Below, piece after piece: positions 21,643 to 62,058 of a stretch of DNA of 64,000 nucleotides. Each line of letters begins with the position of its first letter. Position 1 is the stretch's first letter. The position numbers and the translations under genes are program-made. The notes under the pieces are model-generated. The model saw only the letters and a program-made list of their open reading frames with translations, was not told where the DNA came from and searched no databases. Source of the DNA: Owenia fusiformis (Eukaryota > Annelida > Polychaeta > Sabellida > Oweniidae); contig CAIIXF020000008.1 in NCBI GenBank assembly GCA_903813345.2, forward strand, positions 26,520,822 to 26,584,821, in the 5' to 3' direction.

Positions 21643-23198
21643 TGAGAGGGCAGATGCCACTGGGGCTACAGGAGTGAGATTGAAAGAAGGAGCAAATATT
21701 AACCGATCCTTGGTGACATTAGGCAATGTTATATCCACATTAGGTAGGTAGAATCACGACAGATATTTTGAGCTTGTTTTTCTTGGTTGGATTTAATGTT
21801 TCCTCCTTTTTATAGTTGTTCATAGATATTTGAACGTTGTATATTATAAAATTTAAGTGAAAATAGGCCTTTTATCAAGCCAGTTGCACTCTAGTAATCA
21901 CCTCCCTGGTATAGCAGATAATAAGTCAGATACCAATGCCAAGATGACCTGGATTTGAACCCAGGACCTTCGGATTAGAAGTCTAATGCTTTATCCATAT
22001 TAAGCTTTGGAGGAAGCCACTCATAGTGATTTTCCCAGCATTAGAGCAACCAGGTACTTAACTTCTTAACCCCCTTGAAAAATTGAAAATTACTTGCCAC
22101 CCTGTTAAAAATATATTTGGAATCACTACCCTTTTCAGTCTTCAGGATCATTGTAACATATATGAACCTGTATATTTCTAGCTGACATGTCTGTGAAGAG
22201 TGGTAGCCAGAAGAAGCAGCTGTCTTCAGGATCATTGTAACATATATGAACATTTATATTTCTAGCTGACATGTCTGTGAAGAGTGGTAGCCAGAAGAAG
22301 CAGCTGTCTTCAGGATCATTGTAACATATATGAACATTTATATTTCTAGCTGACATGTCTGTGAAGAGTGGTAGCCAGAAGAAGCAGCTGTCTTCAGGAT
22401 CATTGTAACATATATGAACATTTATATTTCTAGCTGACATGTCTGTGAAGAGTGGTAGCCAGAAGAAGCAGCTGTTCATTCCCTATAGGGATTCCATCCT
22501 CACCTGGCTCCTGAAGGACAGTCTGGGGGGTAATGCAAAGACCATCATGATTGCTAGTAAGTCACGTCTCTGGAATATATATTGCTCTATTCATGATATC
22601 TTCAAAAAACTTTTTGTCATTGAAAATATGCATTGACTCGGTGTCACTACCAATTAACCAATTTATATGAAACTCGTACAGTCTCAAGCAAACTAACTAT
22701 CCTGTCTCACGTTAAAGTTTGAGCATCCAACTCCTCTTATTATAAAATCGAGAGCCAATGGTAAGAAACCTTTTGATCGGCCCTTGTAGGAAGTCCCATT
22801 CAAAAACTTGCATTTGAAATGTTCCTCTCCACTTACAACTTACAATCAGCCTACTAAAATGGAATGAATTTTGTCACAAATCTGAAATTAATATTCTCAA
22901 GTATATTTATCCCAGCTAAAATTAATAAAACTGCTATTCCGGTCAAAGAGGAGCAGCCAATTATACATAAACATTGTATATATGCAATTAGGTGAATTTC
23001 CAGCAAAGTTTCATTTTCTTTGCAGCCATTTCCCCAGCAGATGTAAACTATGCAGAAACGCTCAGTACACTACGCTATGCTAACAGGGCAAAAGACATCA
23101 TTAACAAACCCACTGTCAATGAAGATCCCAATGTTAAACTGATCAGGGAACTTAGAGCTGAAATATCCCGACTCAAGATGCTTTTAGGTGGAAATATA
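21643..23198 (+). CDS. KIF16B: KIF16B exons 1-3 seen here: end of the motor domain and neck
   Basis: Three exons. The first begins with the last base of the Ser codon of the switch II AGSE motif and reads [20 protein letters not shown], then [11 protein letters not shown] (helix alpha-4 region). The second reads [20 protein letters not shown] and AKTIMIA. The third reads [20 protein letters not shown] and [13 protein letters not shown] (last motor helix and neck), then [14 protein letters not shown]. All are hallmark kinesin-3 sequences. Exon 2's acceptor at 22434 is the last of four near-identical acceptors 84 bp apart; the other three lead to an in-frame stop, so 22434 is the productive one. 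Confidence 0.95.
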
Positions 23199-41100: not shown

Positions 41101-44100
41101 TGATAGAATTAATTCCTTGGTGGAGCAAGAGGTGAAAAAGCGCCTGTTTGAAGAAAAGGTTCAAAGAGAAAAACAACGAAGGATAGAACGAGAGAAGGAA
41201 AAACGTGAAAGAGATGAAGAATTGCAGAAGATCCGATTGGCTCATAAAAAGGAATTAGAAAGGTTGAGGAAAAAATATGAATTAAGGTAGGTTTAACCCA
41301 AGAGAGTAAATTAATCTGTAGTGCTGTGTTGAATAATTCAATTTTCCCTTCTTCTCTATGGCATGAGTGATTGTCTGAAAAATGGTTCTACCCCAGAAAT
41401 ACTCTAGTCTTCATCTACTTTCTAATTAATCTAGATTCAAAAAACTATTACCCAACTTTTCCTGATTTTTATAAAAAAAAATTCTCTATTTCTACCTTTG
41501 AATTAAAGGATGCTCATTTGGATATATGTATGGAAATATATTTGATTCACAAATTTATTCAATGGCTTTCAAGTATAATCAAAAATAGATAATATACTTG
41601 GCCTACCCCTATACTATAAAGAACCATTACCCACCAATATATATCATACAAAATATATATAACCCGCTAATATTTTTCAGTGATAACAGTCTTCCTGCTC
41701 CTTCTAAAAGCAACCCTTATGCCTCTGTCATGGTAAGTCTCCCCTTTAATCAATCCCCAAGATTCCCCCTTAAACATCACCTATAGCCTTGTCTTGGTTA
41801 ATTGTTTTGAGATATATAAATTTCTTAGTAACAAGGTTGCCTAATAGTCAAATATGAATTGTACTGTCTGAAGATTAAATCAGAAATTCATTGATGAGGA
41901 TTCAATTCAAAATGTCTGCTTTCAAAAAACATTTCATACTCTATTCAAATTCATATATTGCTCTAGATCATGATCACAGTCTTCATGTATATTAGTGTTT
42001 TCAGTGTAAAGGATTAAGATATATTCTTCTGTCCCTTTGTGTTTTAGACTGGGGAAAAGCTGCCACAGAATCAGAATGGAGATGTATGGGTGCCAAGAGT
42101 GAGTTCATTTTAATTTGTTTGAATCATGGGTTGAATCCAATGCACTTAGTAACCCTCATTGATGATGAGAATTCTTCGGAGAACAGTTTTGAGGATGAGG
42201 AAATGCCTGAGGAACATACTGCACTGCAGTTCTTTTCAGGATCACTCTGTTATCCTCTGTTTGATAACTAAATGGTTCTTTCAAGAACCAGTTACTCTCA
42301 AAATAGAAATAGGTCATGAATTTGTTTTTGCCATTGATTACATGAGATAGGGTTTGGTTCTGGTGGCCATTTAAAATGGGGAAATAATGTAAGCGCATAT
42401 TGGTCAATCATTAGGCCAGTAGTTGGCTGTAGGGCCTACCACTGTACCATTGACATGATTGATTTCTAATCTTAAGTTCCTCAGATAAATGTACTAACAT
42501 GAATACTGTAACATTGCTCCAGTGTATGTATTAAATATGAAAACCCAGAAGTACAAAATTTAATACAGACTTTAAGCAATAACAGAAAAAAAGAAACAAT
42601 TACATGTCTTGTAATCAAAGAAATGAACGTATTTCAGAAGGGTCCTCAAGCAGCCAGCTCAATGCCCAAACGTTCCACTTCAATGCCAAACTTGCCCATA
42701 GAGAACCCTATAATAATTGACATTCCATCATTCACAATGAGAGGCTATGGAATAGATGCTCACTATGAATATGAAGTCAAGGTAAGGCAAACAAATATGT
42801 CAGTATGAGCTACATGTACACCTGTGCTGTATATACTATATTTGCTGATATGGAGAATATGACCAAGCTGCCCATTTGGTGCAATAAAATTGCTTTACTA
42901 TTAAATATGTGACTGTGATTCTAATCTACAATATAACAATTTTATAAAATGACACATGATTGTTAATAGTCCCCAACATTTTTGTGGACAGTGTTCAACA
43001 GTTGATGTTTGGCATCTATAGCAAATGACAGTTGGTGACATTTTGCATGCATGTTAATGCCTTATATGACATTGTCATAAGTTTTTAAATCTGTAACAAA
43101 AACCTGTTTGCCAGATTTATGAATGTGTCGATATGATAAAACATTCAATGAATGCATGTGTAATGAATAAAAACCTTCACTCAGTGAACAAATTGCTATA
43201 AGACAGGACTCTATAAAATGTACATTATAGGCAGTAACTAAGTGTCTACATTTGGTATGTTTTAAGGATTAACTACTGTAGATACTCCTCTGACTCACCT
43301 CCATATCTTGATTATATGTGTAATTGTTGATGTTTACATTGCTAGGTGAATGTATTAGGAGACAGCTGGTCTGTCTACAGGAGGTATAGCAGGTTTAGAG
43401 AGCTACACAACACATTGCAGCATGAATATATAGAGGTGAGTAACAACACTTTGCAGCTTGAGTATGTAGAGGTGAGTAACAGCACTTTGCAGCTCGAGTA
43501 TGTAGAGGTAACAACACTTTGCAGCTTGAGTATGAAAATGTAGGTAACAGCACTTTGCAGCTTGAGTATATAGAGGTGAGTAACAACACTTTGCAGCTCG
43601 AGTATGTAGAGGTGAGTAACAACACTTTGCAGCTTGAGTATGTAGAGGTGAGTAACAACACTTTGCAACTTGAGTTTGTAGAGGTGAGTAACAACACTTT
43701 GCAGCTTGAGTATGTAGAGGTGAGTAACAACACTTTGCAGCTTGAGTATTTAGCGGTGAGTAACAACACTTTGCAGCTTGAGTATGTAGAGGTGGGTAAC
43801 AACACATTACAGCTTGAGTATGTAGAGGTGAGTAACAACCAATTGCAGCTTGAGTATTTAGAGGTGAGTAACAACACTTTGCAGCTTGAGATGTAGAGGT
43901 AACAACCCATTGCAGCTTGAGTATGTAGAGGTGAGTAACAACGCATTGCAGCTTGAGTATGTAGAGGTGAGTAACAACACATTGCAGCTTGAGTATATAG
44001 AGGTAAGTAACAACACATTGGAGCTTGAGTATATAGAGGTAAGTAACAACACATTACAGAATGAGTTAATAGAGGTGAGTAAAAACATTGCAATATACAA

Positions 44101-46379
44101 CATGAGTGTGCTTATGACTTAGTACATCAGTATTCAAGCTGACACAAAAGTTCCAGGTTAATTTTTCAGATTGATAAATTGTATTGTGCTCAACTAAGCT
44201 AAAGGACAGTGCCTAGGTTCTTCGGTACCGGAGTATAATTTCACCAATATTTAAAAAAAGTCATGAAGTAAATCTTGTTTTCAATCTTTGTGTTACAGGT
44301 TGGTGCACTGGCATTTCCACCTAAACGCTGGTTTGGTAACCGTTCTGAAAAGGTTCTCTCAGAGCGTAGAGTCCAGTTAGAGGTAAAAACATTGCAGTGT
44401 GATAGTGTATGCTTAATCTATAAACATGTGGTAATGAGTACTAATTAGACTCCAGATTGAAAATCTGGAGTCTATTGTTTTTGCCTGTTTTCTTTTTATT
44501 ATTCTTTTTCTTTTTTCTTTCTTCCTCCTAACAGATTTTCTCTCCAACTATAACATCTTATTCTTACTTAATCCAACGTACATGGTTAACTAAAGACTGT
44601 ATCCGGCTTTCTGGGAAATTAGGTCAAATTTTTATCTAGGTCAAAGGTCAAGAACTAGGTCAAATCTTACATTAACAACATTCTTCATCATATCTTCGTC
44701 AATATTCTTCGTAACTCCTTCATCTTTTTTTCACCGTGTAGGTTAGAAGAAGGCGAATCAAAGATATGACATCAGAATTTTAATTACTCTTACCAATTTT
44801 GAGATATGGCGTCCGGAAAGTAGGTCAGAACGAAAAGTTTTCCAAATTCAACATGTGAGTTATGAAATGAGTGTAGAATGATCTCAGGAATCCGAATCTG
44901 CAAACCAAATTTGGATCGGACTTCCGGTTCGGAAGTTATGGCGTTTTGAAAGCTCAAAAATCACTAAATTTGGTGCCTATGTTAAGTCAATGGAAAAAAA
45001 AAAACTTTTTCGAAGTGTAAAATACAAGATATAGACTTGGTACAGCTTAACATAATGAATGCTTATAAAAGAAGGGGACCTCAAAAGCTACATAGCTTCA
45101 AAATTTGGACACCAAAATGCCTAGGTCAAAATCTAGGTCAAATTCATAGTTTTTCCTTATTTTTACGATTCTGACATTACACTTTAATAATTTACTTCAA
45201 AATAGCAAAGAGTGTGCTAATAGTGTTAGCATTTTGCCGTCAGAAAGTATTTTGACCCACTTTTGAGATATGGTGTCCGAAAAGTAGGTCAAAATAAAAA
45301 GTTCTCCAAATTTAACATATGAGCTATGATTTAAGGGTAGAATTTTCCCAGGAATCCGAATCTGCAAATCAAATTTCAATCCGACTTTCGATTCGGAAGT
45401 TATGGCGTTTTGAAAGCTCAAAGATCGCTAAATTTGGTGCCCCATGTTATGTCAATGAGAAAAAAGATTTTTTTGAAGTGTAAAATACCAGATATAAACT
45501 GAGTACAGCTTAACATTCTGAAAGCCTATAAAAGAAGGGGACCTCGAAGGCTATCTAGCTTCAAAATTTGGACACCAAAATGCCTAGGTCAAAATCTAGG
45601 TCAAATTCATAGTTTTTCCTTATTTTTGCGATTCTGACATTACACTTTAATGATTTGCTTCGAAATTTTGTATACAGGTAGCAAAGAGTGTGCTTATAGT
45701 GTTAGCCTTCTGCCGTCAGAAAGTATTTTGACCCACTTTTGAGATATGGTGTCTGAAAAGTAGGTCAAAATAAAAAGTTCTCAAAATTTAACGTATGAGT
45801 TATGAATTAAGGGTAGAATTTTCTCAGGAATCAGAATTTTTAAACCAAATTTCGATCCAACTTCTGATTAGATAGTTATAGCGGTTTGAAGTCTCGAAAA
45901 GTCGATATGATGATATCCCCATATTAAGCCAATGGAGTCGAAGATAACATTCTTAAAAGTTGTCTAAATGTCTATATTCTAGCTGACTCAGCTTATTCTG
46001 AATGACTCAGCTTACAAGTATTTGGATGACTCAGCTTAAAAAAAGTCTGAAATCTGGAGTCTTAAATTGAACTTGTTCAATTTACATGTCTAGTAATTAT
46101 GAATACTTAAAAGTATTTTTACCATACACATACTTAAGAGCTCCCAACATAATACAAATAAAATGGTTAGCAAAGCTGTCACTTGGATTCACCTTACTTA
46201 ACACTTTTCATTTCATTTTTCAGAATTACCTACGTAATGTGATCGAGATATGCCGTAAGTTGCCAAATTGTCCGCTACATGCCACTAAAAATAAACACAT
46301 CAATAAACAAGTACTCCTCGAGTTTTCCACATTCTTCAAGAAAGGTGTATTTGAATCTACAAAACATGGAACTGGATGA
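21643..46379 (+). CDS. KIF16B: Kinesin-3 family motor protein, KIF16B-like (5'-partial)
   Basis: Role (known family): plus-end microtubule motor that carries PI3P-positive early endosomes. Seen: 24 exons with GT-AG borders: 21643-21743, 22434-22556, 23026-23198, 23739-23852, 24439-24561, 24810-24999, 25279-25364, 25790-25908, 26366-26573, 27237-27368, 28025-28093, 28916-29077, 29748-30583, 30927-31018, 31393-31419, 39914-40017, 40633-40778, 41107-41286, 41681-41732, 42048-42098, 42638-42781, 43346-43435, 44299-44382, 46224-46379. All phases agree: 3,562 coding bases, about 1,186 residues. Order: motor end, neck, FHA, coiled coil, PX, and a C-terminus FFKKGVF...KHGTG close to vertebrate KIF16B. 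The first exon starts inside DLAGSE, so about 240 N-terminal residues (P-loop, switch I) are missing; I did not find them upstream. A plausible AATAAA lies near 46966. Confidence 0.95.
21870..22020 (-). repeat. tRNA-Arg(TCT)-derived SINE or tRNA pseudogene
   Basis: On the minus strand ATGGATAAAGCATTAGACTT, then CTAATCCGAAGGT and CCTGGGTTCAAATCCAGG follow in tRNA order. The loop CTTCTAA gives anticodon TCT (Arg), and the T-arm (plus 21948-21965) pairs perfectly. The A-box side and the acceptor stem do not pair, so this is not a functional tRNA. An internal Pol III B-box (GGTTCAAATCC) is intact. The body probably extends toward 21870. Confidence 0.6.
22141..22433 (+). repeat. 84-bp tandem repeat duplicating a KIF16B intron-exon border
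   Basis: The unit contains TATATTTCTAG (3' splice site), the first 41 bases of the following exon and 43 bases of intron. Exon-like starts fall at 22182, 22266, 22350 and the true 22434, exactly 84 bp apart. Copies are almost identical, so the expansion is recent. A decoy acceptor would read into a TAA after 19 codons. Confidence 0.9.
23739..25364 (+). CDS. KIF16B: KIF16B exons 4-7: post-neck helix and FHA domain
   Basis: Exons 23739-23852, 24439-24561, 24810-24999 and 25279-25364. They encode a helical stretch ending [15 protein letters not shown], then [20 protein letters not shown] with [15 protein letters not shown], then the FHA core: [42 protein letters not shown], and [20 protein letters not shown]. 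The order matches vertebrate KIF16B. FHA domains normally bind phosphothreonine. In the first loop the usual GR (T-Y-V-G-R) reads T-T-I-G-T, so the canonical phosphate-binding Arg is absent. The EDEHC motif is retained. Confidence 0.93.
24283..24394. repeat. 56-bp tandem duplication in an intron
   Basis: GAGCAATAGTGTCATCATGA... through GTGAGAAGT is present twice with two substitutions. Confidence 0.85.
25524..25789 (+). repeat. About 33-bp minisatellite abutting a KIF16B 3' splice site
   Basis: About eight units of the type CATGCCCATTGTATGTGTGC + AATCAATTTGTCT fill the end of the intron. The last unit, GTACAATCAATATGTTTCAG, provides the acceptor of exon 25790, so part of the splice site looks repeat-derived. 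Confidence 0.85.
25790..31419 (+). CDS. KIF16B: KIF16B exons 8-15: linker and long coiled coil
   Basis: Exon 25790-25908 encodes a Ser-rich linker ([20 protein letters not shown]; vertebrate KIF16B has a similar SLSMTDLSKS stretch). The next seven exons (26366-31419) are almost wholly charged heptad sequence rich in E, K, Q and L, for example [20 protein letters not shown] and LEVKR-like repeats. Exon 29748-30583 is unusually large (836 bp, 278 residues). Exon 31393-31419 is a micro-exon of 27 bp (EMLLELQQK). Expected role: dimerisation and autoinhibitory stalk. The coiled coil is open on one strand without stops, and the phases join without exception. Confidence 0.92.
28418..28890. repeat. 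Two copies of a GTCACCACC...GGTGGTGACATTTTG repeat
   Basis: Copies at about 28418-28565 and 28745-28875 share GTTTGGC, GTTTGTAACAAATGGCAGGT (TCTGTAACAAATGGCAGGT in the second) and GGTGGTGACATTTTG. Further copies are at 31040-31175 and 42960-43060. All four lie in introns of the same gene, in the same orientation. Confidence 0.6.
31040..31180. repeat. GTCACCACC...GGTGGTGACATTTTG repeat, copy 3
   Basis: Begins TATGTCACCACCAGAAAAGG and ends GACAGGTGGTGACATTTTGG, with GTTCAGTGGTTAGCGTTTGG between. It starts about 20 bp after the donor of exon 30927-31018. Confidence 0.6.
31442..32680. repeat. Tandem repeat rich in GGCGGCCATTTTGAAAAATGGCCGCC hairpins
   Basis: About six units of 100-150 bp, each with CGAAAAGTAGTGGAGCGATTT, TGTTCATATTTGGTATGTGA, ATACTATAAGCATG and a palindromic GGCCATTTTGAAAAATGGCC. 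The left edge carries TCCCATCGAACGAAGTTCGG and CCTCCGTCCGTCCGTCTGTC. The right edge carries GTTCGATGGGATTCGCTACG, so short inverted words (CCCATCGAAC/GTTCGATGGG) may be its ends. A related fragment lies inverted at 50475-50605. Confidence 0.7.
33085..33685. mobile_element. MITE with TTAA target site (601 bp)
   Basis: TTAA at 33081-33084 and 33686-33689 flank AGGAATATTCCTTGCC ... GGCAAGGAATATTCCT. The arms stay complementary for about 200 bp each (GGAAGTGATGTCATC against GATGACATCACTTCC). TTAA duplication is typical of piggyBac and Kolobok. No transposase. Confidence 0.8.
33690..34565. other. Intron sequence, nothing recognised
   Basis: AT-rich part of the 8.5-kb KIF16B intron, without exon or clear repeat. 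Confidence 0.35.
34570..35201. mobile_element. Probable TTAA-type element, AGTGGGAATATCG...GAGCCGCT
   Basis: TTAA at 34566-34569 and 35202-35205. The inverted match at the ends is short (CTTAAAGTGG / CCGCTTTAAG). The interior is less AT-rich than the surrounding intron, with CGGAAGTT and CGATAGCTC words. Shorter terminal repeats make this less certain than 33085-33685. Confidence 0.5.
35206..35767. other. Intron sequence, nothing recognised
   Basis: AT-rich, no exon found. It ends in the TTATTATT target of the next element. Confidence 0.35.
36370..38403. mobile_element. Nested element CATACCTGCCAACCT...AGGTTGGCAGGTATG (2,034 bp)
   Basis: Inverted ends CATACCTGCCAACCT / AGGTTGGCAGGTATG are flanked by a 5-bp direct repeat GCTTC (36365-36369, 38404-38408). 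Both flanks of the interior are arrays of TTTGCGGTAGATTTT-like units of about 20-35 bp (36400-37135 and 38100-38390). Between them lies a CpG-rich stretch of unrelated composition (37141-37990). No transposase seen. The ends are hAT-like in style, although hAT elements usually make 8-bp duplications. Confidence 0.7.
37141..37990. other. CpG-rich segment between the GCGGTAG arrays
   Basis: About 850 bp rich in ACG and CGT words (GAACG, ACGTTCT, CGTACT) with little TpG excess, unlike all sequence around it. Open frames of 70-80 codons on both strands overlap, with no domain resemblance. I recognise no gene. Confidence 0.5.
38992..39180. repeat. Pyrimidine-strand microsatellite (TCCTA)n / (TTCCT)n
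   Basis: Nearly pure C/T/A on the plus strand, TCCTATCCTATCCTATCC with TTCTT variants. Inside the AGACTCC element copy 1 only; copy 2 lacks it. Confidence 0.85.
39521..39799. mobile_element. MITE CAATGGCGTAGCG...CGCTACGCCACTG (279 bp)
   Basis: Inverted ends CAATGGCGTAGCG / CGCTACGCCACTG with flanking CACTC on both sides (39516-39520, 39800-39804). A GGGGGGACCTCCCCC palindrome in the middle. Lies about 110 bp upstream of exon 39914-40017. Confidence 0.65.
39914..42781 (+). CDS. KIF16B: KIF16B exons 16-21: distal coiled coil and linker to PX
   Basis: Exons 39914-40017, 40633-40778, 41107-41286, 41681-41732, 42048-42098 and 42638-42781. They continue the coiled coil ([40 protein letters not shown]; a basic [14 protein letters not shown]-like helix), then a short Pro/Ser linker ([14 protein letters not shown]). 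The last begins the PX domain (IIIDIPSF and [13 protein letters not shown], the first strands). The donor at 40779 (AG|GTCTCT) is weak, but it restores R-I-N-S-L in frame, matching the family; reading on would stop at 40821. Confidence 0.9.
40126..40245. repeat. Small inverted repeat (hairpin MITE)
   Basis: ATTTGCCCCG ... GATTGAGTATTTTGTTCAA is mirrored by TTGAACAAAACACTCAATC ... CGGGGCAAAT. Arms are about 50 bp with mismatches. Lies between exons 40017 and 40633. Confidence 0.7.
42960..43065. repeat. GTCACCACC-family repeat, copy 4 (partial)
   Basis: Shares ATTTTTGTGGACAGTGTTCA, GATGTTTGGC and GGTGACATTTTGCATG with the copies at 28418-28890 and 31040. The left end is missing. Confidence 0.5.
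43346..46379 (+). CDS. KIF16B: KIF16B exons 22-24: PX domain and C-terminus
   Basis: Exon 43346-43435 encodes [20 protein letters not shown], with the R-R-Y-S-R-F motif whose Arg contacts the 3-phosphate of PI3P in PX domains. Exon 44299-44382 encodes [12 protein letters not shown] (the Pro-rich PPK loop) and ERRVQLE. Exon 46224-46379 finishes the fold (NYLRNVIEI) and ends [18 protein letters not shown] before TGA (46377-46379). The C-terminal wording is nearly the vertebrate KIF16B end. The donor at 43436 is the first of about 19 donor-like copies in a following array; the next exon joins in phase 0. Confidence 0.93.
43412..44083 (+). repeat. 36-bp minisatellite that multiplies a KIF16B 5' splice site
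   Basis: About 19 units of TTGCAGCTTGAGTATGTAGA + GGTGAGTAACAACACT. The first is the real exon end (TTGCAGCATGAATATATAGA-G|GTGAGT). Most units keep GAG|GTGAGT or GAG|GTAAGT, strong donor matches. Units are multiples of three; two irregular units (near 43507 and 43890) shift the frame by -4 and -5, a net -9. Long open frames on both strands here are translations of the repeat. Confidence 0.95.
44447..46093. mobile_element. AGACTCCAGAT...TCTAG element, copy 2 (1,647 bp)
   Basis: Same left hairpin (AGACTCCAGATTGAAAATCT...) and right hairpin (AAATTGAACTTGTTCAATTT) 6 bases before CTAG. TAATT flanks both sides (44442-44446, 46094-46098). The interior contains about three diverged 450-480-bp tandem blocks, each with GTCCGAAAAGTAGGTCAAAA, GAATCCGAATCTGCAAA and TCGGAAGTTATGGCG. 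No coding capacity. Lies in the last KIF16B intron. Confidence 0.75.
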
Positions 46380-51496: not shown

Positions 51497-52690
51497 AGAC
51501 CCCCCACGTTATAAAACTAAGACCCTGTTATAAAACTAAGACCCCCCATGTAATAAAACTAAGACCCTGTTATAAAACTAAGACCCCCCACGTTATAAAA
51601 CTAAGACCCTGTTATAAAACTAAGACCCCCCACGTTATAAAACTAAGACCCTGTTATAAAACTAAGACCCCCCACGTAATAAAACTAAGACCCTGTTATA
51701 AAACTAAGACCCCCCACATTATAAAACTAAGACCCTGTTATAAAACTAAGACCCCCCACGTTATAAAACTAAGACCCTGTTATAAAACTAAGACCCCCCA
51801 CGTTATAAAACTAAGACCCTGTTATAAAACTAAGACCCCCCACGTTATAAAACTAAGACCCTGTTATAAAACTAAGACCCCCCACGTTATAAAACTAAGA
51901 CCCTGTTATAAAACTAAGACCCCCCACGTTATAAAACTAAGACCCTGTTATAAAACTAAGACCCCCCACGTTATAAAACTAAGACCCCCCACGTTATAAA
52001 ACTAAGACCCTGTTATAAAACTAAGACCCCCCACGTTATAAAACTAAGACCCTGTTATAAAACTAAGACCCCCCACGTTATAAAACTAAGACCCTGTTAT
52101 AAAACTAAGACCCCCCACGTTATAAAACTAAGACCCTGTTATAAAACTAAGACCCCCCACGTTATAAAACTAAGACCCTGTTATAAAACTAAGACCCCCC
52201 ACGTTATAAAACTAAGACCCTGTTATAAAACTAAGACCCCCCACGTAATAAAACTAAGACCCTGTTATAAAACTAAGACCCCCCACGTTATAAAACTAAG
52301 ACCCTGTTATAAAACTAAGACCCCCACGTTATAAAACTAAGACCCTGTTATAAAACTAAGACCCCCCCCACGTTATAAAACTAAGACCCTGTTATAAAAC
52401 TAAGACCCCCCACGTTATAAAACTAAGACCCTGTTATAAAACTAAGACCCCCCACGTTATAAAACTAAGACCCTGTTATAAAACTAAGACCCCCCACGTT
52501 ATAAAACTAAGACCCTGTTATAAAACTAAGACCCCCCACGTAATAAAACTAAGACCCTGTTATAAAACTAAGACCCCCCACGTTATAAAACTAAGACCCT
52601 GTTATAAAACTAAGACCCCCCACGTTATAAAACTAAGACCCTGTTATAAAACTAAGACCCCCCACGTTATAAAACTAAGACCCTGTTATA
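51497..52690 (+). repeat. 42-bp satellite, left arm (about 28 units)
   Basis: Dimeric unit: AAAACTAAGACCCTGTTAT plus AAAACTAAGACCCCCCACGT-TAT. Rare variants have CCCCCATGTAAT, CACATTAT, one fewer C or two more C. 42 bp is 14 codons, so it stays open and translates as a repetitive 14-residue unit; this is not a gene. Confidence 0.95.
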
Positions 52691-53619
52691 AGAATCAGTC
52701 ACCGTGCCTTGCTCTGCTCGCCACAAGGTAGTCTTGCCTCTGGGCCTTGTGTTCCCTAGTAACATACAGATTCTACAAAAGATAGTCTTGCTTCTGGTCC
52801 TTGTGTTCCCTTCTAATATACAGATTCTCCCCACTAACATAAAGATTCTACAAAAGGTAGTCTTGCTTCTGGTCCTTGTGTTCCCTTCTAATATACAGAT
52901 TCTCCCCACTAACATAAAGATTCTACACATGGTAGTCTTGCCTCTGGCCCTTGTTTACCCTAGTAACATACACATATGGTAGTCTTGCCACTGACCCTTG
53001 TTTTCCCTAGTAACATGGTGGTTCAAGATTTCAGACCCATCTTTCTCACATAGATTGCTGAACTTATTTTAGTTAAGAATTCCTAATAGAATTAAGAATT
53101 AATAGCTGAAACTGTTCTGTTTGTCCTAGCAAACAATATCCCAATATGCATTTGAAATTCATTTTTGTCTATATGTGTTGACAGTCTGTGATGTCATCAT
53201 CAATCATCACAATGGGAATTAGGTGAATTCTATCTGTGACAGTGAGATTATCTATGATGTCACATAGTAGTTTGATTTCTAAGAAATGTGGCAGAGTTCT
53301 ATCTATGACAGAGATGCTTTGTGATGTCATCATGAATTATCTCGTTTCTATTGTGATGATTGATGATGTCATCAGACTACTTTGTGATGTCATCGTGAAT
53401 TACCTCATTTCTATTGTGATGATTGATGATGACATCACAGTCTGTCAACAAATAGACAGAAGAAGTTGAACTACAAGTTGGAAAATTGTTTGCTAGGGCA
53501 AAACAACTCAGTTTCAGCTAATAATTCTTAATTCTATTAGGAATTCTTAACTAACAATGGTTCAGCAATCTGTGCCAGAATAATGGGTCTTAAATCTTGA
53601 ACTACCATTAAACATCACT

Positions 53620-53770: not shown

Positions 53771-53933
53771 ATCAAAAAATTACTTTTTTAAAAATCAACA
53801 AATCCGGGTATTTGTTACAGTCCATTTTTATATAATCCGCTGTTGTATGTTACTGGGGAACACAAGGCCCAGAGGCCAGGAGGCAAGACTACCTTGTGGC
53901 GAGCAGAGCAAGGCACGGTGACTGATTCTTATA

Positions 53934-54769
53934 GCAGGGTCTTAGTTTTATAACGTGGGAGGTCTTAGTTTTATAACAGGGTCTTAGTTTTATAACAGGG
54001 TCTTAGTTTTATAACGTGGAGGGTCTTATTTTTATAACAGGGTCTTAGTTTTATAACGTGGGGGGTCTTAGTTTTATAACGTGGGGGGTCTTAGTTTTAT
54101 AACAGGGTCTTAGTTTTATAACGTGGGGGGTCTTAGTTTTATAACAGGGTCTTAGTTTTATAACGTGGGGGGTCTTAGTTTTATAACAGGGTCTTAGTTT
54201 TATAACGTGGGGGGTCTTAGTTTTATAACAGGGTCTTAGTTTTATAACGTGGGGGTCTTAGTTTTATAACAGGGTCTTAGTTTTATAACGTGGGGGGTCT
54301 TAGTTTTATAACAGGGTCTTAGTTTTATAACGTGGGGGGTCTTAGTTTTATAACAGGGTCTTAGTTTTATAACGTGGGGGGTCTTAGTTTTATAACAGGG
54401 TCTTAGTTTTATAACGTGGGGGGTCTTAGTTTTATAACAGGGTCTTAGTTTTATAACGTGGGGGGTCTTAGTTTTATAACAGGGTCTTAGTTTTATAATG
54501 TGGGGGGTCTTAGTTTTATAACAGGGTCTTAGTTTTATTACGTGGGGGGTCTTAGTTTTATAACAGGGTCTTAGTTTTATTACGTGGGGGGTCTTAGTTT
54601 TATAACAGGGTCTTAGTTTTATAACGTGGGGGGTCTTAGTTTTATAACAGGGTCTTAGTTTTATAATGTGGGGGGTCTTAGTTTTATAACAGGGTCTTAG
54701 TTTTATAACGTGGGGGGTCTTAGTTTTATAACAGGGTCTTAGTTTTATTACATGGGGGGTCTTAGTTTT
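53934..54769 (-). repeat. 42-bp satellite, right arm (about 20 units, inverted)
   Basis: GGTCTTAGTTTTATAACAGG-GTCTTAGTTTTATAACGTGG is the reverse complement of the left array with the same variant types. It is about 0.36 kb shorter than the left array. Confidence 0.95.
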
Positions 54770-57492: not shown

Positions 57493-60400
57493 ATGGGATG
57501 TACATCTGTGTTCTGCATGTTTATATTAGTATTACATGCTGATTACACAATCTCGTTAATGGCTGAAAATCAAATACAGTGCCTTCCCCTGGGGCATGAT
57601 GCTGAAGGGGGGGGGGGGGGGTTGAGCACCTGAGAGGGTGGAGCTGCCAGTGTTCACATACAACCTGGGGCCCAAGCAAATATTTCTGGAGAGACCTCAA
57701 GGACAGGAAGCATGAGACCAAAAGAGATGAAGATATTACAGGGTTTAAAATGCATTGTGAGAAATGGAACAGAACTTCGGAACTTGAGATTTTTTCTCAA
57801 TTTGATCAATCAATACTCTATCAGATAATACACTTGGATTTAAGTGATAATTCAATTGATGAAATTGCTCCAGGATATTTTCAGAAGGTTCCTAATCTGC
57901 GATATTTAGATTTGAGTGGAAACAATCTTGAAACATTGGTTTCAGATGTTTTTAAAGGCCTCAATCATCTTGAACAATTACACTTGGAGCGAACAAATTT
58001 GGAAATCCAAACATCACTACCACCAGGATTATTCCAACATACACCGAGCCTTAAATATCTGAATTTAAAATGCCCGAAGACCCAAAATTGGAACAATCTA
58101 ATTAGGGTCCCCCTAACAACAAAAGAAAGCAATTCTGACGTAAAATTCAAAGTTAAATCCAACCAAAAGAATAGTGAGTCAACTCCATATTTGGAACCAA
58201 CATTCCCAGATGATGTTTTCATTGATTTAAAGAACATTGAATACTTAGGACTAAGCCTACTCAATGTAGGAGAACTTAGTTTTGGGAACGCATTTACCGA
58301 TATGAAATTCCTGACATTTCTTGACTTCTACCAAGGTGGGGAAAGTGAATCAAAGTGTGGAGATTACTTGCCAATTAATGGGTTTACATACATGTAAGAT
58401 GTCATAATATTGATACATGCATTAGTTCTTCTATCAGTAATTTCTTCCCAACACACCATCAATATGTATGCAGAACTGCAAAAGGGAAAATACAAAAATG
58501 TTACAAAACAAAGAAATTGAATCATCTGAGACAAGTGGAACACTTCAAAATACCATTACCCATTAATTTAAGTTTAAAACCTTTCTATATCTCCTAAGTT
58601 AACACTTTTTGAAGTACTAGTACCAAGTTTTTCATATATATACACATTTTACTGTGTATAGAATGTATATTACTATTACTTTTTTCTAGGTATGATCTGA
58701 CTGGCTCACAATTTGGCAGAAGTGACACTTCAGGTTTTCATCATAATGCAGCCTCTGAAGACATCAGTCACCACACACTACATACCCAAATAAATAAACC
58801 TCCAACAGTTCCAAATCAAAACAGTGTTAACTACAACAATACAGATGCCAATAATGCACACAATGCTAGTGCTTATAAATATGTGCACCCTGATAATTCC
58901 CACAACCAACTAGAAAGCTTTAACACAGATGGTCTTCATTTGAGAAATGACACCTTCCTACCATTTAAAGATGGTCAACTGAAGAAGTTGAACCTTAAAC
59001 ATGCTAAGATAAGAGGTGTGGATGCATGTGTTTGGTGCCCACTGAAGTCCCTAGAAATTCTTGATATTAGTTGCAATGAGTTCCCAAGTAGCTTCGCCAA
59101 ATGGACTGATTCTTTCTATGGCCTTCAAGGTAACAGCATACAGACAATTATGATGGATAACATAGTTGATCCTGATAATATTGAGAAATGGTCATTTGAT
59201 GAAGATAAATTCCGTTTCTTGAAGAACACCCGGATTCACCAGATTTCAATGGCTGGAAATGCAATAAATGAAATATCCCCAATACTTGGGAGTGTATTTC
59301 CCTACTTGGAATATCTATCTCTGAAAGCTAATTTTATATGGAATGTATATGGAGAAACACGGGACTTGGTTCTACTTGATCTCTTTACCAGTAATCTGAA
59401 GGTGTTGGATTTGAGCTACATGATGAATGCTGGTGAGTTCTTTATGGTTTAACATTGCAACAATATTTGTACATTCTTTCCCCTTGATAGGCTTGCTTTG
59501 GACATACATGTATGTATTCTTGATCACCATTGTTAGCTGGATTATAGGGGTTTAAAGGTCAATGCCTTGAAATGTCAATAACAAGCTCTCGGCACAAATT
59601 TAACATTGCTTGTAATATTTTGTAACTGGTACAATCCTCAATTGTTGTTTTACTTAAATGGGGTGCACTTTGACTAAATATAATGAAACCAATAGTGACT
59701 GCCACATAAAAAATAGTGCAAAATGATTAGGCCATAATAAGTAGATTTTTTGTTTTACATTCCCTTGCTTGATTAATTAAGGCCGTTAGAGTAAATCGGC
59801 AAACATCTAAGTATGGAGTCAAATAAAAATCCACAGGTATATCTGAAAGTACCATAGCAAATTGTTTGATCTTAATAAAAATTGAAGGCATAATTTAATA
59901 GCTTTATGACTTCAATCACTGTTAACTAGAAAGTTATTCATTCATTATAAATTTGATTAAATACTCAGTGCAGTGTGCACTTTGTGTGTGGAGTTTGCTA
60001 TAAGAAAGGGACCAGACCATGAGCCATAGTCAAATTAAAGGCAACTTTAAATACTTTAAAATGTTCGGCATTGTAAGATTGTATGTCCTATATGATTACC
60101 TCCAATATATATATATATATAAGAAAGAAAAATAAGAAAAGAAAAATAAGAAAAATATTGCAAAATATTGGATTATATATACATGTATATAGCAATGCTA
60201 ACCTTGATAATTCAGGCATTTTGCATTTTGCAGTTCTTCTCTCTGTGGTCATCTTTTAAATATACTGTATATATTACGTATTATGATATTTGTGTTTTAG
60301 TTTGAATTTGTTTTCCTCATAGCCTTGATTTGGATTTTGTCAGGACAAAAAATTGTCTCTTTCTAATTGCCCTATCACTATTTCTGCCAATCATTATTTG

Positions 60401-62058
60401 TGCACAAAGTTTCAATTTTATACTATTGACTGGAAATGCATTTTGTGTCATTCGTTTTGCTATTGACTGCTCAATAAGAATCACTAGTAAATACTTCTGA
60501 GATACATGTACTAATAGAACAATAAATCATATTTCTAGGTGGCAACACTGTAAAATGCTGGGTTCCTTCTGAATTGTGGTTGAAGAACTTCATTGAAGAT
60601 ACAGACAATCCAAGACCAAGATGTGAATCTGAAGGAGCCCTAGAAGAGTACTTGAGGTACAAAGCTGAACACCCAGAACAAAATGTTGCTGCCTTTCCAC
60701 TTCCCTTTAATATAGAGGAAATATATGGCAACAACTTGCCATTTTACTCAACCACTGGCCAGGCAATATCTTACACACCAATTTTCATCTTAAACAATAA
60801 CCATCTTCGTAGGATAAGTGCTGAAGGGGTGTCACTACAACAGCTTCGTCATGATTTTCTTGGTGCAAAATGTCTTGAATATATTAATGTACGTGATAAC
60901 AAGATAAGCTTCATTAAACCCGATATTTTAAGAAATCAACCATATCTGAGGACCATCCTTCTTGGAGACAACCAATTAGGACAACAATTAAGCAAAGGAG
61001 GTAATGATAGTACATTATTTGAGAATGTTACGTCACTTCAGGTAATAGACATATCCTCCAATAGCATCCCATCACTGAATAAGTCCACCTTTAGAGGGTT
61101 ACATAACCTAAGAGTCCTCAACATCAGTAGAAATTATCAGTTTGGAAAATCTGGTCTAGATTTAGATGTCCAAGATCTGAGAAAATTGGTCTACTTTGAC
61201 CTTTCCTATACATCTACCACAAGTTTTGATATGGTAACAAGGAACTTTTTTGATGATGTGAACAAGCATGAACAACTCAGCATTGATTTGACAGGGAATG
61301 GCTTTCCATGTGGATGTCAGAATCAAGAAATGATAAACTGGATGCAGAACTCATCAATTCACTTCCCCAACAAGCAAACATACATGTGTGACAATAACAA
61401 CACCTACATCATGGAGGTGAATATTTCAAAGCTAGCCACTGACTGTTTCCAAGCACCAATTGAAGTCAAACATAATGCTCTAGTTCAGACTATTCTCCTC
61501 TCACTTGGATCAGTTCTGTTCTTGGTGATATTAGGTGCTGTAGTTTATAGGTATCGTTGGAAACTGCGATACCACTTCTATCTTGCGAAAGGTTCCTTAC
61601 GTGATCATGGTGATCCAAAGGTTCAAGATGGATTCAAATATGATGCCTTTGTTGCATATAACCATTCAGAAGATTATCATTGGATTATTGATGAACTCAT
61701 ACCTGAGATAGAAACCAAACACAATCTGAGCCTTCTGATTGGTCAACGTGACTTCACTGCCGGAAATCTTATCATAGACAACATAGTTGATGCAATCGAA
61801 AACTCTCGTAAAACAATCTTGGTTTTGACGCCTAGTTTTGCCGATAGTACCTGGTGTAATTGGGAAATGAAATTCGCACTGAGTAAGGGGGAGGGTTATG
61901 TTATTCCAATAATGCAGAGACATATCCCGCAGGAAGTGATGCCAAAGACACTTATGAGAATTATTTCCACTATGACCTATCTTGAATGGAGTGATGATGA
62001 AGATGCCAAACCATTATTTTGGAAAAAACTCCTTGACAAAATAGCCGTGAGAAAATAA
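57493..62058 (+). CDS. Toll-like receptor (signal peptide, LRRs, LRRCT, TM, TIR)
   Basis: Role (known family): cell-surface or endosomal receptor signalling through its TIR domain to NF-kB-type pathways. Seen: three exons, 57493-58393, 58690-59432 and 60539-62058 (introns 296 and 1,106 bp, phases 2 and 1, frame closes). Start: CCAAAACCATGG, then MGCTSVFCMFILVLHA, a signal peptide; a 3' splice site at 57447 suggests a 5' UTR intron. An LRRNT-like C...C-Q-C...C cluster, then LRRs (IIHLDLSDNSIDEIAPGYF; LRYLDLSGNNLETL; VLNISRNYQFGKSGLDL). LRRCT at about 61300-61455 (PCGCQNQEMINWM...C...C). Membrane span 61477-61551. TIR from about 61630: box 1 YDAFVAYN, box 2 QRDFTAGN, box 3 LFWKKL. About 1,050 residues. 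Odd: a 15-G run at 57607-57621 breaks the frame between signal peptide and LRRNT. Confidence 0.92.
57607..57621. repeat. G15 mononucleotide tract in the TLR first coding exon
   Basis: Fifteen uninterrupted G. With 15 G the signal-peptide frame meets TGA at 57631-57633. The LRR frame is open from 57606 through the tract. A tract of 13 or 16 G would join them. Confidence 0.9.
58394..58689 (+). other. TLR intron 1
   Basis: Donor CAT|GTAAGA, acceptor TTTTTTCTAG|G. 296 bp, AT-rich, no other content. Confidence 0.8.
59433..60538 (+). other. TLR intron 2 with (AT)n and GAAAAATAAGAAAA microsatellites
   Basis: Donor GCTG|GTGAGT, acceptor CATATTTCTAG|G. 1,106 bp, with an ATATAT run and AAGAAAAATAAGAAAA repeats at about 60100-60165. 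Confidence 0.8.

Follow-up and report, generated by a model that had tools for sequence, protein, structure and literature searches.

Minisatellite-like tandem duplications extending over exon-intron boundaries, called mirages, have been described in lancelets, and they are reported to leave regular splicing undisturbed (PMC3087553, PMC3902484). They were found in the genes for Adh3 and the globins BflGb6 and BflGb9 (PMC3087553, PMC3902484) and also in TnC and PGBD5 (PMC3902484). The same reports give units of 10-72 bp for the Adh3 mirages and indicate that either boundary can be duplicated and that many units carry splice signals (PMC3087553, PMC3902484). Our literature search, with most subscription papers outside its reach, found mirages in lancelets only. 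Turri is said to have reported in 1995 a minisatellite with multiple splice donors in human IFI6 (6-16, G1P3), the unit of which is reportedly 12 bp. Two downstream repeat units of IFI6 serve as donors, giving rise to three mRNAs (PMC4526556). Tandem duplication has also been connected with intron gain (PMC4974935), and internal tandem repeats at exon-intron boundaries can alter splicing in human segmental-duplication genes (PMC2812944).

The array considered here lies in a kinesin gene of the annelid Owenia fusiformis, and judged by its sequence in a single assembly it belongs to the mirages, a kind known from lancelets. Like the lancelet mirages, it spans an authentic exon-intron boundary, its first unit leading from a PX exon to the junction given by KIF16B, and its units carry AG/GT splice signals, with 15 of the 19 donors reading GTRAGT. 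Unlike them, it is found in another gene and another phylum, and the present analysis includes a genome-wide search for further cases in Owenia and a test of frame neutrality. The array may carry to another lineage a structure that these searches found in lancelets only. It resembles the IFI6 minisatellite in offering several donors at an exon end and differs from it in the 36-bp unit and in that use of a later donor is a candidate only, donors 2 and 3 being those that could give a full protein. As in the work on intron gain (PMC4974935), it is a tandem duplication within a gene involving splice signals, but it lengthens an existing intron and forms no new one. Whereas the human repeats belong to recently duplicated paralogues (PMC2812944), a search of the genome returned the kinesin array from a single place. 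Models in which introns arise by boundary duplication can draw on arrays of this type.

The window, a stretch of 64,000 nucleotides, contains the exons of a KIF16B-like kinesin-3, all on the plus strand. A motor exon, matched best by the kinesin-3 KIF13B (E=1.4e-12), and an FHA exon (E=5.3e-7) are found upstream on the same strand as exons for a C-terminal PX domain, the combination of a KIF16B-type kinesin-3, and strand and order suggest that they form one transcript. The probable start of the PX domain is exon A (42638..42781), recognized by reading frame and splice signals only and followed by the donor AAG|GTAAGG; a Pfam search with the 98-residue open frame containing it gave no match. 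Exon B (43346..43435, 90 bases) matches the PX domain in Pfam (E=2.9e-5) and the KIF16B chain 6ee0_A in phmmer (E=2.2e-7), the latter match stopping at the final residue of the exon. Exon C (44299..44382) also matches PX (E=0.0021; 19 bits, which alone does not reach the curated cut-off of 21.6), and the last coding exon (46224..46379) ends in a stop, as seen from the joined protein and the frame table. When 43346-43435, 44299-44382 and 46224-46379 are joined via the first donor, the product matches KIF16B with E=3.8e-30, without a gap at the array junction and with its sole gap far downstream. Thus, the first donor, GAG|GTGAGT at 43436..43441, is taken as authentic. A second boundary array is present in the same gene at 22138..22475, where TRF finds an 84-bp unit four times with 99% likeness; what is repeated is the 3' splice site of the motor-domain exon together with roughly the initial 40 bases of that exon, which starts at 22434 and was identified by sequence and by phmmer (KIF13B, E=1.4e-12). 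In this acceptor-side counterpart, splicing to the acceptor of an earlier copy would read into stops.

The array at the PX exon is a 36-bp minisatellite (43407..44087) with 19.2 copies, 88% matches and a score of 991 in TRF. According to the unit table, its units consist of an exon end and a 5' splice site: unit 1 lies inside exon B as its 3' end, and every later unit repeats this end together with a donor. The donors lie at 43436, 43472, 43508, 43544, 43576, 43612, 43648, 43684, 43720, 43756, 43792, 43828, 43864, 43899, 43931, 43967, 44003, 44039 and 44075, and those of the GTRAGT type are packed into 640 bases, 14 of them reading GAG|GTRAGT and one GCG|GTGAGT. The remaining four are one GTGGGT and three GTAACA (43508, 43544, 43899), and the units opened by the three GTAACA donors show an identical 4-base gap in the alignment. 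These results bear out the original prediction of about 19 candidate donors in a kinesin intron, created by duplication of the PX exon end with its donor and mostly preserved as GAG|GTGAGT or GAG|GTAAGT; the two frame-shifting losses that it described are also present, one of 4 bases at 43508 and one of 1+4 bases near 43890-43902, which together restore the original phase. A search of the genome with 43300-44400 returned a single place (repeats can escape such a search); with units that differ from each other, so that a simple collapse is unlikely, with intact flanking exons and with many similar arrays elsewhere in the genome, we regard an assembly artefact as scarcely credible.

Unit 17, near the far end of the array, is the one most like the exon (3 differences), and a derived ACTTTGCA is common to units 2-11 and 14, which suggests that the half nearer to the exon expanded later. 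Behind exon C, the intron opens with GTAAAAACATTGCA (44383-44396), a 14-base exact match to 44079-44092 just behind the array (P=0.0015 by shuffling).

Which of these donors could yield a functional mRNA? The full-length end of the gene is reached from donors 1-3 only, with 0, +12 and +24 residues, respectively. The second donor (43472..43477) is strong, in frame and adds 12 residues without a stop, and the third (43508..43513), weakened to GTAACA, is also in frame and adds 24, as seen in the unit table, the U1 energies and the frame table. All transcripts spliced from donors 4-19, that is 16 of the 19 donors, read a TAG at 43541..43543, and a complete protein is excluded for them. The predicted insertion of one 12-codon unit through the second donor would thus be in frame, at a different place: it had been put directly behind RRYSRF and would lie 13 residues after it. 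Likewise, the idea that later donors run into a stop holds from donor 4 onward and fails for donor 3.

We consider, with a probability of roughly 0.8, that the kinesin array is a mirage minisatellite in which the first donor is normally used and the other donors behave as intron. An outline of the process would be as follows: initially, a tandem duplication creates a founding unit that reaches from the 3' end of a coding exon across the adjoining 5' splice site. Slippage or unequal exchange would then lengthen the array within the intron. The spliceosome would pick the first donor at 43436 to give the ordinary 90-base exon, and the gene would keep working. Occasional use of donor 2, or of the weak donor 3, would add 12 or 24 residues at the end of a PX helix, a position that we assume from the PX fold, and a transcript from any donor after the third would meet the stop at 43541 and be removed by nonsense-mediated decay. 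The array, its donors with their frames, the match to KIF16B and the sister arrays are observed, and we infer the choice of donor, the decay, the mode of expansion and the helix-end position of the insert. Stops behind 16 of the 19 donors, the gap-free KIF16B junction obtained with the first donor, the recurrence of sister arrays, the frame neutrality of the units and the undisturbed splicing reported for lancelet mirages all favor this model, and of the three fates that had been envisaged for the array, namely neutrality, splice noise and an insertion of variable length, neutrality fits best, splice noise is a further candidate, and the insertion is possible for donors 2 and 3 of the 19 only.

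The model meets with some difficulties. The duplex with U1 has an energy of -12.4 kcal/mol for the exon's own donor at 43436, -11.0 to -12.4 kcal/mol for 15 copies and -6.4 to -6.6 kcal/mol for the three damaged GTAACA donors. Thus, U1 pairing is equally good for most copies and for the donor at 43436, and donor strength alone cannot explain why the first donor should win. Moreover, among identical competing donors the intron-proximal one is often favored, which counts against the first-donor reading. Neutrality is also questioned by the fact that the first two added donors are in frame and that the variation in the donor columns leans, not significantly, to conservation: variant cells amount to 4/145 in donor columns and 30/458 in other columns (P=0.10, with the poorly aligned unit 4 excluded), so that this test gives no significant sign of selection on the donors within the kinesin array. 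Donor columns without significant conservation and three donors with the same deletion are what is expected without selection on donors. The same figures bear on the proposal of a regulated decoy, in which late donors together with nonsense-mediated decay would lower the output of kinesin. It could draw on the 15 GTRAGT donors crowded into so short a stretch and on the stop reached from donors 4-19; the lack of significant conservation in the donor columns, the deletion shared by 3 of the 19 donors and the presence of equal structures in unrelated genes, suggestive of a mutational origin, make it most unlikely.

How common are such arrays? The genome searched comprises 498 Mb in 525 contigs, of which C1-C12 are 32-62 Mb long. 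A search for arrays of three GAGGTRAGT motifs spaced 10-40 bases apart gave 83 places, corresponding to 16 arrays including the kinesin array. When the other 15 were read by eye up to the first donor, 12 appeared to start at the end of a coding exon and three did not (L004, L014, L015). When the acceptor-to-donor stretch is required to have a codon score above 3, 10 of the 15 pass, or 11 of 16 with the kinesin array, whose own pass is not independent, the score having been trained on exons of the window including the PX exon. The score is a rough one: for random noncoding places, the majority of which lack a donor, the pass rate is 0.5 to 2%, and the false-pass rate is higher at donor-like sites, where L059, L067 and L068 pass without the look of an exon. 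The motif AAGGTRAGT yielded at least 18 arrays from the best 100 of 117 places, of which L017 was known already and 17 were new; among the matches listed, 10 of the new ones are exon-anchored by eye and eight pass the score, L035 barely, and L047 is exon-anchored by a CRIPT match beyond these eight. From the best 100 of the 570 AGGTRAGT places, six arrays were read (L002, L017-L021), with C1:8832853 and C1:14175041 left out.

The exons at the sister arrays belong to diverse genes. Pfam recognized an AAA domain (AAA ATPase; L005, E=2e-27), UDP-glucose dehydrogenase (L039, 5.4e-11), Ig (L043, 1.1e-5) and MIR (L042, 0.001, below its cut-off). Other matches are to SRP72 (L006, 8.9e-10), a WD40 protein (L007, 1.8e-6), NCS-1 (L044, 2e-10), CRIPT (L047, 2e-8) and cadherin (L008, 3.2e-7), and those to SRP72, NCS-1 and CRIPT reach to within one residue of the donor. 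At E<0.01, Pfam gave no match for seven of the first 10 array peptides and for seven of the next 10. Other sister genes are, as we presume by name, DCAF7, Rab27, SVOP, tetraspanin and ELOVL. Two arrays are built otherwise. L037 (C2:27479000-27480300) has a possible exon within a 53-bp array, its own end and donor being copied before and behind it, and L021 (C1:11973900-11977400) has a 29-bp unit repeated about 78 times and contains dozens of AGGTGAGT donors; an exon was sought at the start of L021 and none was found, so that this donor array is apparently not at an exon.

If a regulated choice of donors 2 and 3 extended the PX domain by 12 or 24 residues, the array would be a source of functional protein variation. 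This proposal is attractive in that the unit is 12 codons long, both donor 2 and donor 3 are in frame and stop-free, and the 12-residue unit peptide is similar to the 10-residue exon-end peptide. It was confronted with a set of 30 exon-end arrays, 29 judged exon-anchored plus the kinesin array, 23 of which pass the score or have a PDB match (L089, with two copies only, and L050 are included, L037 is left out on account of an exon situated within its array, and L013 is counted from a re-placed first donor). In eight of the 30 (P=0.56) and in seven of the 23 in the scored subset (P=1.0), the most frequent spacing is divisible by three, and a later donor that is in frame and free of stops exists in six of the 30, the kinesin array included, and in none of the other 24. 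Such frame-neutral units with few usable later donors argue against a selected protein insertion, which is unsupported for the class as a whole, and in the kinesin gene itself donor 3 is damaged; we therefore judge regulated protein variation very unlikely. Two arrays are the best candidates for an insertion of variable length by their reading frames: L087 (C1:442400-443900) with 54-bp spacing, where all 16 later donors counted would keep the frame without a stop, and L002 (C1:5411200-5413000) with 33-bp spacing, where all 11 counted would do so.

For the first-donor model, the set of 30 has a further consequence. In 28 of the 30 arrays, the median later donor is within 0.35 kcal/mol of the first donor's U1 energy, a likeness that is partly by choice, as later donors were counted only if they read AGGTRAGT. 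Frequent use of later donors would break most mRNAs, so that either the first donor usually wins or decay clears the rest. Each array is a natural test of 5' splice site choice among many near-identical donors, and with about 30 of them in one genome, most without a usable alternative, the rule, whether first transcribed, exon size or decay clean-up, should be readable from RNA data.

Are real donors hot spots of tandem duplication, whether for mutational or selective reasons? This idea, that arrays at donors exceed random placement, is compatible with the mirage model and is a possibility toward which we do not lean. Random minisatellites landing on donors would also yield such arrays, and a donor-motif search selects them, so that controls are needed. 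There are 6,238 GAGGTRAGT sites in the genome, 7,946 and 6,486 sites of two control motifs, 5,840 of the reversed motif and 16,774 of the acceptor motif TTTTYYCAGG; arrays of similar spacing number 16 for GAGGTRAGT, 14 and 6 for the control motifs and 1 for the acceptor motif, and the reversed motif gave 2 unlisted places. Per site, this makes 16/6,238 for GAGGTRAGT and 22/20,272 for the controls, the two unlisted places counted as two arrays (P=0.012; P=0.010 after removal of a control array that proved to be a donor array). A hand count at the start of C1 gave tandem clusters for 4/54 GAGGTRAGT sites, two of the four with two motif copies only, and for 1/299 of three other motifs (P=0.002). 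In addition, 11 of the 16 arrays are exon-anchored by score as compared with 11 of 36 single sites (P=0.015), or 10 of 15 without the kinesin array (P=0.028). The single GAGGTRAGT sites, of which 11 count as exon ends by score or Pfam, are 36 that were read from the 50 non-tandem sites among the best 100, with Pfam families assigned to L065 and L074 by judgement.

Among 35 control arrays, three sit at an exon end, that is at a donor (L029, L031, L106), and one at an exon start (L098). An exon-end score above 3 was obtained for L023, L027, L029, L031 and L106, the last with a Cav channel match (E=0.0018); L023 and L027 were set aside, as their peptides lie mostly within the repeat. An exon-start score above 3 was counted for L098 and set aside for L092 and, antisense, for L031. 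The control TGARTGGAG gave 14 arrays, one of which is the donor array L020 and stands outside the 35, and the control ACTGTCAA gave 17 among the best 100 of 309 places, with one skipped as a copy of another. Several control arrays extend past the sequence read, so that their ends are partly uncovered (e.g. L026, L030, L102, L105, L108, L110, L111). L098 (C4:4114274-4115362) is a minisatellite that runs up to where a probable WD40 exon begins, the family being assigned by eye, and thus a boundary array on the acceptor side.

However, the shares vary with the calling of exons. With earlier calls of the array starts, P becomes 0.04 or 0.06, and 0.14 when the AAG arrays are included; with rechecked starts and the AAG arrays added, it is 0.027 (19/32 and 11/36), and it rises to 0.08 (17/32) when a weak row is dropped along with a row called through a PDB search, which the single sites did not receive. 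By Pfam alone (E<0.01) the shares are similar, with 4 of the 16 arrays and seven families' worth among the 36 sites, and genic and intergenic sites differ in other respects too. Counted as raw places in arrays, donor motifs are barely commoner than the reversed strings: 570 and 517 for AGGTRAGT, 83 and 76 for GAGGTRAGT, and 117 and 116 for AAGGTRAGT. The near absence of arrays for TTTTYYCAGG (one among 16,774 sites) is matched by its reversed control, with none among 4,380 sites, so that a mere scarcity of T-rich motifs in minisatellites may be the reason. Overall, P lies between 0.002 and 0.14, varying with the exon calls, and the results are suggestive of a donor hot spot, which is thus not claimed. 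The stronger statement, that true 5' splice sites are the preferred birthplaces of minisatellites here, that runs of strong donors, with as many as 33 counted in one array, occur in scores to hundreds of genes and that a strict first-donor-wins rule holds, is doubtful; if true, the arrays would amount to repeated natural experiments on the choice of a 5' splice site.

Elsewhere in the window, two large 42-bp satellite arrays lie about 1.2 kb apart at 51508-52691 and 53929-54769; their units look mutually reverse-complementary and the open frames flanking them are similar, perhaps a mobile element with inverted ends. A Toll-like receptor gene with leucine-rich repeats and a TIR domain (E=6.2e-16) occupies 57606-62058.
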